Below are positions 55,225-59,261 of a stretch of 64,000 bases of DNA, piece by piece (within the stretch, counting starts at the first letter, position 1; each line of letters opens with the position of its first letter). The notes beneath the pieces were generated by a model that made no database searches, was not told the DNA's origin, and worked only from the letters and a program-made list of their open reading frames with translations. A program made the translations under genes and the position numbers. Where the stretch lies: contig CACAAX010000003.1 of assembly GCA_902530595.1 (NCBI GenBank), positions 1 to 64,000 on the forward strand, given 5' to 3'. Source of the DNA: an uncultured Alphaproteobacteria bacterium (lineage in GTDB: Bacteria > Pseudomonadota > Alphaproteobacteria > Rhodobacterales > Rhodobacteraceae).

Positions 55225-55248
55225 GCAGGATCTAAGGATTGATAAATT

Positions 55249-57048
55249 ATGAAATTTAAACCTATACCTCATGACGTCGAGAAAGATAAAAGCTACTTCT
55301 GGTGTAGCTGTGGAAGAAGTAAAAACCAGCCTTTTTGTGATGGCAGTCATGCGGGCAGTGAATTCGCACCCTTAAATTATGTAGCGGAAAAAACAGAGAC
55401 GAAATATTTCTGCACATGTAAAAAAACACAAAAAAAACCTTTCTGTGATGGCAGCCACAATAAATTAGATACAATCCTCGAGGATGCAAAAATCGTGGAA
55501 TTTGAACCTATACCTCATGACGTCGAGAAAGATAAAAGCTACTTCTGGTGTAGCTGTGGAAGAAGTAAAAACCAGCCTTTTTGTGATGGCAGTCATGCGG
55601 GCAGTGAATTCACACCCTTAAAATATGTAGCGGAAAAAACAGAGACGAAATATTTCTGCACATGTAAAATGACAAAAAACAGACCTCTCTGTGATGGAAG
55701 TCATAATAAACAAGAAAAAAGTTATAATGATGGAGATCTCTTTTCAGCAATGGTACAACCTGACAACAAAAAAATAGAGGTAGGTGTAAATGAAACAATA
55801 CTCACAGCATCAATAAGAAACAATATATCTCACTTAAGTGCTTGCGGAGGTACTGGAAAATGCTCGACTTGCAGAGTTGAAATTACAGAAGGATTAGAAA
55901 ATTGTTCTCCCAGGTCAGATGCTGAGAGAAAGCTATCGGATAAGCTTTCCTTTCCGGAAAATATAAGACTTGCCTGCCAAACCACAATAAGTGGACCTGT
56001 TTCGTACAGAAGACTTCTGCTTGACAAGAGGGATTTGAGTAATTCAAATAAATTGTCCGATACGAAACTAGAGTCCGTCGGTACTATAAGAAATCTGACG
56101 GTGATGTTTGTCGATATTAAGGGTTTTACCCCTTTTTCTGAGGCGCTTGCTGCTTATGATGTGATATTCATTTTAAATAGATACATCTCTATAATGCGCG
56201 AAATCATCATTAAAAATGGTGGGGAGATAAATAATTATATTGGTGATGCTATTCTGGCTATCTTTGGTCTCAAAGACTCAAGACAACAGACACTTAGAGC
56301 AGCAAATACAGCGTTAGAAATGCTACAAGCTATGGACGAGTTTAAGGATTATCTGTCTCAAGCTTACGGTAGAGATTTTGATATACGAATAGGTGTTCAT
56401 TATGGTGAAGCCATTCTAGGTTCTGTTGGTTTTGGTGAAGACAAAAAATTTACCATAATTGGAGACACTGTAAATATCGCCAGTAGAATTGAAGCTATAA
56501 ATAAAGAGGCGGGAACACGTTTTCTTATTTCCGATGTTGCTTATGAAAGAATTAAAGATGCTGTTGATGTAAGAAATTTTGTGAGATTAAAATTAAGGGG
56601 ATCTAGTAACTTAATCACCCTGCATGAGGTTAGCGGTCTAAATAAAGATAAGCTAATAGATCACTCTGATATTAAAATAAAAGAGATTGATGGCAATACT
56701 TGGATAAGGACTTTGCCAATTAGCGAGCTCGATGTCGGAGAAAAGAAAAAGTTTGAATATGATGGAAAAGAATTTCTTCTTATAAATCAGGAAGGCATCT
56801 TTGCTATTGAGAATATATGTCCCCATATGAATTTACCATTGGACATAGGTCAGATAACAGATGAAGGCACTATCTTATGCCCATACCATAATAGTGAGTT
56901 TTGTTTTAGATCAGGTGAAGTCAGAAAATGGGTTGGATTACAACCTAAAGAAGTAGAAAAAGATTGTGAGCCACTTAGGGTTATTCCCACACAGGAAGCA
57001 GATAGCTATATCTGGATACAGAAACCTTTAAAGACGGTCACGATATGA
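55249..57048 (+). CDS. Multi-iron-sulfur nucleotidyl cyclase: 4x CDGSH + ferredoxin + class III cyclase + Rieske
   Basis: 599-residue fusion. CDGSH domains (Cys-x-Cys...Cys-Asp-Gly-Ser-His) at 19-34, 55-70, 101-116 and 137-152, each able to hold a [2Fe-2S] cluster by three Cys and one His. A plant-type ferredoxin domain follows (about 168-255; Cys199, 205, 208, 243). The class III cyclase domain (about 280-460) keeps metal Asp289 ('FVDIKGFTPF') and Asp333 ('YIGDAILAIFG') and 'IGDTVNIASRIE' with Asn409 and Arg413. The C-terminal Rieske domain (about 478-590) has Cys524/His526 and Cys544/His547. No membrane segment. Up to six clusters in one chain. Ferredoxin-cyclase and Rieske modules are each known; I know of no described protein with this full set. 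Likely redox or iron-sulfur status sensor making cAMP; inference. Confidence 0.92.
   Translation: MKFKPIPHDVEKDKSYFWCSCGRSKNQPFCDGSHAGSEFAPLNYVAEKTETKYFCTCKKTQKKPFCDGSHNKLDTILEDAKIVEFEPIPHDVEKDKSYFWCSCGRSKNQPFCDGSHAGSEFTPLKYVAEKTETKYFCTCKMTKNRPLCDGSHNKQEKSYNDGDLFSAMVQPDNKKIEVGVNETILTASIRNNISHLSACGGTGKCSTCRVEITEGLENCSPRSDAERKLSDKLSFPENIRLACQTTISGPVSYRRLLLDKRDLSNSNKLSDTKLESVGTIRNLTVMFVDIKGFTPFSEALAAYDVIFILNRYISIMREIIIKNGGEINNYIGDAILAIFGLKDSRQQTLRAANTALEMLQAMDEFKDYLSQAYGRDFDIRIGVHYGEAILGSVGFGEDKKFTIIGDTVNIASRIEAINKEAGTRFLISDVAYERIKDAVDVRNFVRLKLRGSSNLITLHEVSGLNKDKLIDHSDIKIKEIDGNTWIRTLPISELDVGEKKKFEYDGKEFLLINQEGIFAIENICPHMNLPLDIGQITDEGTILCPYHNSEFCFRSGEVRKWVGLQPKEVEKDCEPLRVIPTQEADSYIWIQKPLKTVTI
55261..55423 (+). 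repeat. Internal 163-base direct repeat, copy 1
   Basis: The stretch coding for the first CDGSH domain and the start of the second is repeated 246 bases downstream (55507-55669) with only two base differences that I can see. The repeat unit is 82 codons long in total. It is inside the coding region and in frame, so it is a recent tandem duplication or one kept alike by gene conversion, not a mobile element. Confidence 0.93.
55507..55669 (+). repeat. Internal 163-base direct repeat, copy 2
   Basis: Second copy of the repeat described at 55261-55423. The differences change an Ala to Thr and an Asn to Lys after the first CDGSH motif. After the repeat end the two copies diverge quickly (Lys-Lys-Thr-Gln against Lys-Met-Thr-Lys), although both keep the next CDGSH motif. 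Confidence 0.93.
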
Positions 57049-57893
57049 AACAAAAAATTATCAACGTAGAACAATCCGAATACTGGAACGAAAAATCCGG
57101 GCCTAAGTGGGTCAAAAATGAGGATGCACTAAATGAGCGATTATCAATACTAACTGACGAACTTTTTTCGAGAGTGAAAATAAAGGGATCGGATAAGGTT
57201 TTAGATATCGGGTGCGGAGGTGGTGATACAACTTTTCGAGTATCAAAATTATTGGCCGATGCTGGACATGTTGTTGGAGCGGATATTTCGAACACCTTGC
57301 TTAATCATGCAAAAAGTAAATTTTCAGATATCGATACAATGACATTTGTGCATTGTGATGCTCAGAATTTTTCTTTTAATGAAAATTACTTTGATAAAGT
57401 TATATCTCGATTTGGTGTAATGTTTTTCGAAAGTCCCTTAGAAGCCTTCAAAAATATTTATGGTTCTTTGAAGACAAGTGGTTCTCTAAATTTTGTGTGT
57501 TGGACAAATATGATGGAGAATGAGTTTATTATTGAAGGTATGGATATTATCACTAAATATACTCAGAAAGTTCTTCCAGAGGTAACAAATGATCCAGGTC
57601 CCTTTGCATTCAGTGAGCCTGAATATATTAACGAAGTCTTAGAATCGGCTGGGTTCAAAAATATAAATGTTGATAAGGTATATACTTCTATCTCAACGAA
57701 AGATAGCGCGGAGCAAGATGCTGAACTGCTCATGGGGATCGGTCCAAGAGCAAGAATCTTATCAGAAGAAAATTTATCAAGCGAACAAATATCAATGATA
57801 AAAAATGAAATCATTGATCTATGTAAAAAACGAAAAATTGGCAAAGAAATTACGTATAAGGCATGTCTCAATTACGTATCGGCGAATAAATAA
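57045..57893 (+). CDS. SAM-dependent methyltransferase coupled to the iron-sulfur cyclase
   Basis: 282-residue class I methyltransferase. SAM-binding motif I is 'KVLDIGCGGGDTTFRVSKLL' (about 47-66), 'VVGADISNTLLNHAKSKF' gives the acidic motif II, and 'DKVISRFGVMFFESP' motif III. It resembles the UbiE/methyltransferase 11-type proteins. The ATG overlaps the stop of the cyclase gene by four bases (ATGA), so it is translated from the same message. Acceptor unknown. Confidence 0.85.
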   Translation: MKQKIINVEQSEYWNEKSGPKWVKNEDALNERLSILTDELFSRVKIKGSDKVLDIGCGGGDTTFRVSKLLADAGHVVGADISNTLLNHAKSKFSDIDTMTFVHCDAQNFSFNENYFDKVISRFGVMFFESPLEAFKNIYGSLKTSGSLNFVCWTNMMENEFIIEGMDIITKYTQKVLPEVTNDPGPFAFSEPEYINEVLESAGFKNINVDKVYTSISTKDSAEQDAELLMGIGPRARILSEENLSSEQISMIKNEIIDLCKKRKIGKEITYKACLNYVSANK

Positions 57894-57944: not shown

Positions 57945-59261
57945 CTATTTTTTCTTTCTGGCGTGATCTGAAATAAATAGTTCAGCTCCATCAGTCTCCG
58001 CGATCCTAAAAAGCCGGAGCATATTATTTTTCTGCATTTCTTTAAGCCAAGAATAAAGCAAATTTGATCCCAAGCCCTTATTCTTGAAAATCGTTACTAC
58101 TAGCCCTTGCTCAAGGCTCGAAGTGATTAAATCTGCGTTTGATTTAACTTTTAAGACAGCTTCAGCCAGTAGGTCTATAAGTTCCAATCCTGTAGGAGAA
58201 GCTTCAGAAGACTGGGCTATATATCCTGATTTAGCCGTAGGGTGATCAACCCCACGTAGCAGTGGAATTTCAGCGTCATAAATATTTGCTAATAGTCCAG
58301 GAAATGCCACGATAGTATTTATTTCACAATCAACCATCATATCTCTAACACTTTTTTCGTCTGTTGGAAGGCTAGAATAATGAAGATATGATTTTATAAA
58401 GTCTCTTCTATATGCAAATTTCGTAAATCTTGACCCTAGCCACATCATGTATGGCAATCCAAAATCCATTACTGCCGCTCCAACTTGAACCAGATCATAG
58501 TCTATTACTGTAAGCTCTTTGGACTCAGGATTGTATAATATGTTATCTGGCTTGAAATCATTGTGAACGACCACCTGTCGTCTTGCGGCTTCCGAAACAG
58601 GGGAAAAGGCCTCACACTGTATTACTTTTTCATAAACTCCAGTTTTTACACCAAGGTCATAGATTCTTTTTGCAATTCTCGGATCTGGGTTGCCTACTCC
58701 AAGTACCGGCATTTTTGTATCAATCCCGGACCATGGCAGACACCAAAATGGGGCGTAGGCTGGAACCGAATGTAATGCTGAAGACAAAAATTTATCTCCA
58801 TCTAAAAATTCAGCTCTCAATTGATCATACCAGTTAGTTGGTGCTGAGTGCAATTTTGCTAAAACTTCAGCTATTTTATCGGGTGGCGCTAACTCTTCAT
58901 TAAAATGAAAGAAATCCTTCATTACAGAAATTCCAGCTGAGCGTTCAATATGAAAGTCAGTTCCTTTTAATATAACTGGGGGAGCAAGTTTTTGATGTCG
59001 AAGAACATCGGTAGCGAGCGACACTCTCTTTTGCGTTATTGGCTGTGAACTCATAATACCTTTAGAACTGCTAACTTTGACTATGCACTTTGGAACCTTG
59101 TGAAGGGAACAGACATACGTTTTAGCACCGCTATTTCCAGAAACATCTTTAACATCAATGTTTTTTTTTGCTGTAGCATTTGACCCAATTGCCTTTAACG
59201 CCAACTCTTCAATTTCATCCAATGATGCATCTTCAAGTTTTAATTGTAGAAGCTCCGCCAT
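57945..59261 (-). CDS. Aminoglycoside phosphotransferase (APH)-like kinase
   Basis: 438-residue protein of the APH/choline kinase-like fold. The catalytic loop is 'VVHNDFKPDNILYN' (about 235-248; Asp and Asn of HxDxxxxN), and 'TVIDYDLVQVGAAVMDFGLPYM' holds the metal-binding Asp in the IDxx motif. The N-terminal lobe has 'CIVKVSS', giving the ATP-contact lysine. The length is above the 300-residue norm of the family, with about 100 extra C-terminal residues. A resistance function is not implied; a metabolite kinase is more likely. Confidence 0.8.
   Translation of the reverse strand: MAELLQLKLEDASLDEIEELALKAIGSNATAKKNIDVKDVSGNSGAKTYVCSLHKVPKCIVKVSSSKGIMSSQPITQKRVSLATDVLRHQKLAPPVILKGTDFHIERSAGISVMKDFFHFNEELAPPDKIAEVLAKLHSAPTNWYDQLRAEFLDGDKFLSSALHSVPAYAPFWCLPWSGIDTKMPVLGVGNPDPRIAKRIYDLGVKTGVYEKVIQCEAFSPVSEAARRQVVVHNDFKPDNILYNPESKELTVIDYDLVQVGAAVMDFGLPYMMWLGSRFTKFAYRRDFIKSYLHYSSLPTDEKSVRDMMVDCEINTIVAFPGLLANIYDAEIPLLRGVDHPTAKSGYIAQSSEASPTGLELIDLLAEAVLKVKSNADLITSSLEQGLVVTIFKNKGLGSNLLYSWLKEMQKNNMLRLFRIAETDGAELFISDHARKKK

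Follow-up and report, generated by a model that had tools for sequence, protein, structure and literature searches.

In the stretch of DNA analysed here (64,000 nucleotides, positions 1 to 64,000 of contig CACAAX010000003.1, assembly GCA_902530595.1, from an uncultured alphaproteobacterium of the Rhodobacteraceae; hereafter the window), a gene at 55249–57048 on the forward strand joins type-6 CDGSH modules, a ferredoxin (Fer2) domain, a class III nucleotide cyclase domain and a Rieske domain on one chain, and the fusion is confirmed as a real single protein. We consider it reasonably probable that this is a soluble class III cyclase governed by the condition of its own iron-sulfur centres, a reading that draws on the architecture, the conservation of ligands and catalytic residues, a strong synonymous bias, the phylogeny and kinship with the cyclase CyaC. 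The parts of the gene, with the evidence for each, are:

55249–57048, forward strand: whole gene, two type-6 CDGSH modules, Fer2, class III cyclase and Rieske, 599 residues (open reading frame list, translation, Pfam)
55235–55474, forward strand: in-gene 240-nt direct repeat, copy 1 (repeat search)
55249–55464, forward strand: CDGSH module 1, residues 1–72, predicted 3Cys-1His sites C19/C21/C30/H34 and C55/C57/C66/H70 (Pfam zf-CDGSH, motif scan, human CISD3 (6avj) aligned to residues 5–69)
55481–55720, forward strand: in-gene direct repeat, copy 2, 91% identical to copy 1 at a spacing of 246 nt, or 82 codons (repeat search)
55495–55710, forward strand: CDGSH module 2, residues 83–154, predicted sites C101/C103/C112/H116 and C137/C139/C148/H152 (Pfam, motif scan, 3tbn aligned to residues 79–153)
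55753–55989, forward strand: Fer2 [2Fe-2S] ferredoxin domain, residues 169–247, with C199/C205/C208/C243 and an extra conserved C219 (Pfam, residue tables)
55990–56085, forward strand: Fer2-to-cyclase linker, at the position of the cyclase transducer element and putatively acting as one, with the RRLLLDKRDL-like signature of soluble Fer2-cyclases (alignment)
56086–56607, forward strand: class III cyclase catalytic domain, residues 280–453, with D289, D333, N409 and R413, and N329 and T402 at the purine-specifying positions (Pfam, alignments to 3r5g, 2w01 and 1wc1, residue tables)
56701–56931, forward strand: Rieske [2Fe-2S] domain, residues 485–561, with C524/H526 and C544/H547 (Pfam, motif scan)

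One chain with conserved ligands and catalytic residues

The reading frame runs unbroken from ATG to TGA, and an AAGGA upstream of the ATG is a possible ribosome-binding site. All four kinds of domain exceed the curated Pfam-A cut-offs: zf-CDGSH in four stretches (5.2e-35), Fer2 (4.8e-10, 39.7 bits against a cut-off of 21), Guanylate_cyc over residues 280–453 (1.6e-25, covering positions 6–174 of the 183 in profile PF00211) and Rieske (1.2e-14, 54.4 bits against 20.3), with a sub-threshold Rieske_2 match extending to residue 590. The motif scan finds the plant-type ferredoxin pattern C-X5-C-X2-C-Xn-C at C199, C205, C208 and C243, and the Rieske pattern as C524-X-H526 and C544-X2-H547, while the Pfam coverage and the match to 3r5g (E 1.4e-25) establish class III homology over the whole catalytic domain. 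An earlier note on this DNA had placed CDGSH, ferredoxin, cyclase and Rieske domains, with three types of cluster ligand, on one chain, which the intact frame and Pfam bear out, and the residue tables put the catalytic residues it named, D289, D333, N409 and R413, at the positions it gave. Its cytoplasmic location is probably right as well, since a crude hydropathy scan finds no hydrophobic segment and the protein is thus probably cytosolic.

The four CDGSH motifs start in pairs at residues 19/55 and 101/137, 36 residues apart within each pair. This is the register of the type-6 protein MmCISD, with ligands C25/C27/C36/H40 and C61/C63/C72/H76 (PMC3174974), so that what had looked like four domains is two type-6 modules, each with the two C-X-C-X2-[ST]-X3-P-X-C-D-G-X-H motifs about 20 residues apart that define the type; the 240-nt direct repeat accounts for there being two of them. 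MmCISD (3tbn) and human CISD3 (6avj), which have the same tandem CDGSH motifs and match the window protein by phmmer at 2.9e-23 and 5e-16, are small stand-alone proteins, whereas here the modules are fused to a cyclase. The fusions named for CISD proteins are type 5, with the FMN domain of glutamate synthase, and type 7, with DUF1271 (PMC3174974); we rejected membership of either as Pfam gave no glutamate synthase or DUF1271 match.

Sixteen relatives in other assemblies, namely 13 copies from a scan of genome contigs (L038–L050) together with L081, L084 and L110, exclude a chance or assembly join. That an assembly or annotation artefact merged separate genes, as the in-gene repeat and the draft state of the window genome (62% complete) might have allowed, can be dismissed, because the homologues carry the same join and no stop interrupts the frame; the break in frame that the earlier note had said would undo its claim was thus looked for and not found. 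With the window protein these relatives make 17 full-family rows from three genera and two families. All four kinds of domain, judged by motif and alignment, are present in 15 of them, and the two incomplete rows are cut by contig ends (L043 before Rieske, L048 after CDGSH).

Across 37 aligned relatives C199, C205, C208, C243, D289, D333, N409 and R413 are invariant, and in the full table of 54 rows the single departure from these eight residues is an X at 205 in L110 that comes from N bases. The metal and transition-state residues D289, D333, N409 and R413 are present in all 17 full-family rows and in all 54 rows of the table, in agreement with the intact class III cyclase originally described. 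The CDGSH and Rieske ligands are likewise kept, wherever covered, in all 16 scanned rows (58–99% identical to the window protein), including L039, where one CDGSH motif reads CDGNH with its ligands intact; loss of ligands in close homologues, which would have told against a cluster-bearing protein, is therefore not seen. NG86 estimates of the ratio of nonsynonymous to synonymous substitution (dN/dS) over the shared part lie between 0.036 and 0.088 in four pairs (window–L041, window–L039, L047–L049 and L081–L084), the remaining four of eight computed pairs being unused because their dS was at or near saturation (for the shared part, undefined in three and 1.99 in the fourth). Constraint is strongest on the cyclase in window–L041 (0.014) and window–L039 (0.022), but not in L047–L049, and in L081–L084 the cyclase only equals Fer2.

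Distribution, CDGSH copy number and order of assembly

The contig scan drew 12 of its 13 further copies from sources with AG- isolate names and one from TMED198, and 12 of the 13 look like the same genomes as those found by searching the genus, where the gene is present in 13 of 22 genomes, the window's included (genome completeness 58–91%). Beyond the genus, the full gene occurs in G1036, from another genus of the window's family, which is one of five matches among 295 genomes and whose sequence contains N bases, and in G294 and G424 of genus g231 in another family (2 of 10 g231 genomes). A class-wide sample of 385 genomes gave 113 matches at 1e-30, with a span from CDGSH to Rieske only in the window's genome and G294, and a phylum-wide sample of 398 genomes gave 15 matches at 1e-55, full-length only in the window's. 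These absences are weak, since few candidates were scored per genome (three in the class- and phylum-wide samples, four and six in the two other searches); many of the sampled genomes are drafts.

CDGSH copy number is labile. Eight of 13 readable copies in the genus (one of which, L047, is assigned to it solely by its position on the DNA tree) have four motifs and five have two, that is, one module; L081, L084 and the G1036 copy have two each. A DNA tree that leaves out the CDGSH part requires at least four changes of this number, three of them from starred branches alone, so that modules have probably been lost or exchanged as well. A single duplication junction is common to the seven doubled copies in the window clade. 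In L044 the duplicated unit is longer, taking in the start of Fer2, and its junction is unlike that of the window clade, for which reason we rejected a single origin of the doubling for this copy. The doubling is therefore an extra and the two-motif form the core, which we predict to comprise two CDGSH motifs, Fer2, cyclase and Rieske, or four cluster sites. The six possible [2Fe-2S] sites counted in the earlier note stand for copies with doubled CDGSH, but the conserved set is four.

For the order in which the protein was put together we used a tree of the Fer2-cyclase portion (47 of the 54 rows, several flagged as long branches) rooted on the membrane type, a label given to proteins with three to six hydrophobic segments by the crude scan. 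The membrane-type cyclases, among them a Sinorhizobium meliloti protein annotated CyaC, split from the soluble ones (100/100). On the soluble side plain Fer2-cyclases diverge first, and the next clade (100/98) holds the Fer2-cyclase-Rieske proteins, a G102 protein without Rieske and the CDGSH family, itself a single clade (100/99) whose sister, on a long branch, is the Fer2-cyclase-Rieske protein of G938 (L111; 99/93), with N329 and a short Rieske loop. Read in this way, the tree shows an apparent order of assembly from soluble Fer2-cyclase to Fer2-cyclase-Rieske, to which CDGSH was then added. A single gain of Rieske is not proven: G102 (L053) is without this domain despite its position inside the Rieske-bearing clade, and a tblastn search of the surroundings of its gene found no convincing remnant (best E 0.48). 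About 410 nt beyond the same G102 soluble Fer2-cyclase lie an integrase-like and then a transposase-like gene (L082 7508–9815; labels by eye).

The Fer2-cyclase-Rieske form was found ten times, on plasmids of Rhizobium etli 8C-3 and R. gallicum R602 and in eight other genomes. These proteins resemble the window protein in being soluble, on one chain, in the same 100/98 clade and in having C219 (10 of 10); they differ in having no CDGSH motif, and the Rieske domains of L106, L109 and L088 are 26–27% identical to the window's. Pfam was run on the Rieske-bearing rows window, L081, L088, L106, L111 and L110 (L118), and the Rieske assignment in L112–L117 rests on motif and alignment. Of 72,556 plasmid records 54 matched, and among the matches listed none covers 80% of the query. 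The fifth Fer2 cysteine is present in 27 of 27 full and Fer2-cyclase-Rieske rows and in 9 of the 14 plain soluble ones, but in none of the 13 membrane-type rows. The linker differs between the soluble group, which carries the RRLLLDKRDL-like signature, and the membrane group, which carries another, and this fits a transducer role.

CyaC of S. meliloti, a membrane-bound class III adenylate cyclase, is a characterised relative of the Fer2-cyclase part. Its Fer2 stands directly before the cyclase as in the window protein, and residues 171–451 of the latter are 36% identical to the protein annotated CyaC in CP090106.1. CyaC is under redox control, reacts to quinones and is depicted with a [2Fe-2S] cluster (PMC10463352), which lends support to the earlier idea of a ferredoxin-bearing, redox-linked cyclase. 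CyaC has a dihaem anchor of six transmembrane segments and neither CDGSH nor Rieske, the reverse of the window protein, which has no hydrophobic segment against four in the CyaC row of the crude scan. CyaC also has Lys at the purine position and lacks C219, where the window protein has N329 and C219, and the two are separated by the 100/100 branch, so that the window protein falls outside the CyaC clade. Our best reading is that it is a cousin of CyaC in which CDGSH and Rieske centres would replace the membrane haem anchor.

What is new is an input architecture on a known output enzyme; a redox-controlled Fer2-cyclase is known from CyaC. Among the literature matches listed, as far as their titles and the starts of their abstracts go, no cyclase with CDGSH or Rieske appears, in keeping with the initial impression that no protein with the complete set had been described; parts of the set are another matter, as the Fer2-cyclase-Rieske subset exists in sequenced Rhizobium, and CDGSH joined to Rieske_2, Fer4_19 or glutamate synthase domains is already published (PMC5859297, PMC3174974). 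In the main text of the paper on CDGSH-Rieske_2 and CDGSH-Fer4_19 the words 'Cyclase' and 'ferredoxin' occur zero times (PMC5859297).

Proposed mechanism, product and competing explanations

Class III cyclases work as dimers with shared active sites. In the mechanism that we propose, the chain would dimerise through its cyclase domain to form two active sites, each made of D289 and D333 from one subunit and N409 and R413 from the other. Fer2, acting through the short conserved linker, would be the proximal switch, its redox state moving the linker and so opening or closing the cyclase dimer. From opposite ends of the chain, the Rieske domain and the type-6 CDGSH module would act as electron inlets or labile sensors, informing Fer2 of the redox state of the cytosol, of the iron-sulfur supply or of a reactive small molecule, and the product, most likely cyclic AMP (cAMP), would be read by proteins with cyclic nucleotide monophosphate (cNMP)-binding domains. 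What is said here of cluster occupancy, the path of the electrons, gating, the product and the physiological signal is proposed from sequence.

The behaviour of CISD3 offers some guidance as to the input. This type-6 protein holds two [2Fe-2S] clusters and shows a single signal at −31 mV; chelators strip it of its clusters and leave it unstructured, and its reduced form binds NO with disassembly of the cluster (PMC10937110), so that redox state, the supply of iron and NO can each be considered as an input. The same properties, together with the variation of CDGSH number from two to four and the separate junction in L044, would suit a sensor of cluster lability, in which CDGSH clusters are lost on low iron or iron-sulfur supply or on exposure to NO, occupancy rather than electron transfer sets cyclase output, and CDGSH copy number would tune sensitivity. 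We regard this explanation as credible but unlikely, as Rieske and Fer2 centres, in general stable carriers of electrons, do not suit a pure lability sensor, and Fer2-cyclase and Fer2-cyclase-Rieske relatives exist that have no CDGSH at all.

The residue of the catalytic domain that bears on substrate choice is position 329, which by phmmer aligns with Lys in 3r5g and 1wc1 and with Glu in 2w01. It is Asn in the window protein and in 17 of 17 full-family rows, as it is in the sister L111, whereas membrane-type rows have Lys in 13 of 13; the ten Fer2-cyclase-Rieske rows are mixed (Lys 5, Asn 3, Leu 2), as are 14 soluble Fer2-cyclases (Asp 8, Lys 5, Asn 1). The protein thus has neither the Lys of adenylyl nor the Glu of guanylyl cyclases, which limits the name adenylyl cyclase but not class III membership, and the earlier proposal that cluster state is converted to cAMP has to be changed to that extent. 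Its partner, position 402, is Thr in all 17 full-family rows, as it also is in 3r5g and 1wc1 (E 1.4e-25 and 1.1e-21 to the window cyclase; presumably Pseudomonas CyaB and Spirulina CyaC respectively), which differ in having Lys at the purine position. In a separate group, soluble Fer2-cyclases of about 310 residues from family f188 of the same phylum (L087, L089–L093, L099), Asp at the purine position is paired mostly with Ala at the partner position, an unusual combination.

We take Thr402 to be the adenylyl-type partner residue of class IIIb cyclases, and the mycobacterial cyclase Rv1900c makes cAMP with Asn at this very purine position. Both speak against a changed specificity, that is, a guanylyl or unselective nucleotide cyclase in place of an adenylyl one, as does the fact that Asn is not the guanylyl-type Glu. 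In favour of such a change are the uniform replacement of the Lys that membrane-type rows keep and the position of the g231 gene between guaB and guaA (names by eye), although this gene order may be coincidence. In Ma1120 a Lys-to-Glu change at the site lowers adenylyl and raises guanylyl activity, but both this single mutant and the Lys-to-Glu/Asp-to-Thr double mutant retain a higher kcat/Km for ATP than for GTP (PMC4215837). With Asn at 329, Thr at 402 and these precedents, cAMP is the likely if uncertain product, and we judge a changed specificity to be rather improbable. The loss of the Lys, and the presence of four or more cluster sites, which exceeds what a simple switch needs, could also be accommodated if the cyclase domain were an inactive dimer or nucleotide-binding platform for an electron-transfer protein. 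This we think very improbable, given that the metal Asp and transition-state Asn and Arg residues are kept throughout the family and that constraint is strongest on the cyclase in the two window pairs, albeit not in the other two.

Several points weigh against a cyclase governed by its own iron-sulfur centres. The gene is absent from both genus genomes that are at least 90% complete (0 of 2) and is accessory within the genus. With Asn rather than Lys at 329, activity may be reduced or altered, or the substrate may be a different one. CISD3 in cells is unaffected by hydrogen peroxide (PMC10937110), and the redox response of CyaC is attributed to haems (PMC10463352), for which the window protein has no anchor. 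Gene neighbours differ among clades, so that context does not name the signal. Finally, although all 22 genus genomes encode PF00027 cNMP-binding domains, so do 10 of 14 control genomes, and a reader of the signal is thus available but is not specific to the gene.

The function of NEET (CDGSH) proteins is still debated. The role of CISD3 in particular has been called largely unknown (PMC10937110). Here a NEET module stands on one chain with a signalling enzyme, and its redox or cluster state could be probed through a cyclic nucleotide assay. The nested natural series of Fer2-cyclase, the same with Rieske, with one CDGSH module and with two provides a set for finding the contribution of each centre. 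We put forward more tentatively that this is a new family of cytoplasmic second-messenger enzymes responding to redox or iron-sulfur status, in which NEET, ferredoxin and Rieske centres relay electrons or clusters within the molecule to gate a class III cyclase. The NEET module would then provide the sensing end of a system based on nucleotide second messengers, with sensitivity tuned by how many CDGSH modules are present. These findings suggest that, beside the membrane quinone-responsive CyaC type, cyclic nucleotides convey cytosolic redox or iron-sulfur state in some uncultured marine Alphaproteobacteria.

Gene neighbourhood

The genes next to the cyclase gene vary by clade with no common partner across clades, and we therefore rejected operon context as a guide to function. 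Two further features lie downstream in the window:

57045–57893: methyltransferase gene (Pfam Methyltransf_25), starting within the cyclase stop (ATGA)
57945–59261, reverse strand: 438-residue phosphotransferase, APH/choline-kinase-like (Pfam)

Of the ten window-clade copies with a readable downstream side, eight have a methyltransferase there (window, L038, L040–L042, L045, L046 and L048), which overlaps the cyclase gene by 4 nt in the window, L038 and L042 and starts 14 nt past its stop in the other five. The phosphotransferase is likewise downstream in eight window-clade copies. L039 and L050 have an enoyl-CoA-hydratase-like neighbour and L044 and L049 an SDR-like one (labels by eye), while in g231 (G294, G424; L081 7741–12287, L084) the full gene is flanked by guaB and guaA, at 3 nt and 26 nt respectively in L081. 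At three loci, L044, L047 and L049 (about 2.3–4.0 kb), the full-architecture gene is preceded, at a distance of about 1 kb, by a gene for a membrane-type Fer2-cyclase, so that two redox-type cyclases stand close together. About 2.5 kb from the full-architecture gene of G1036, a 180-residue protein with a cNMP-binding domain is encoded on the reverse strand (L118 1766–2308).

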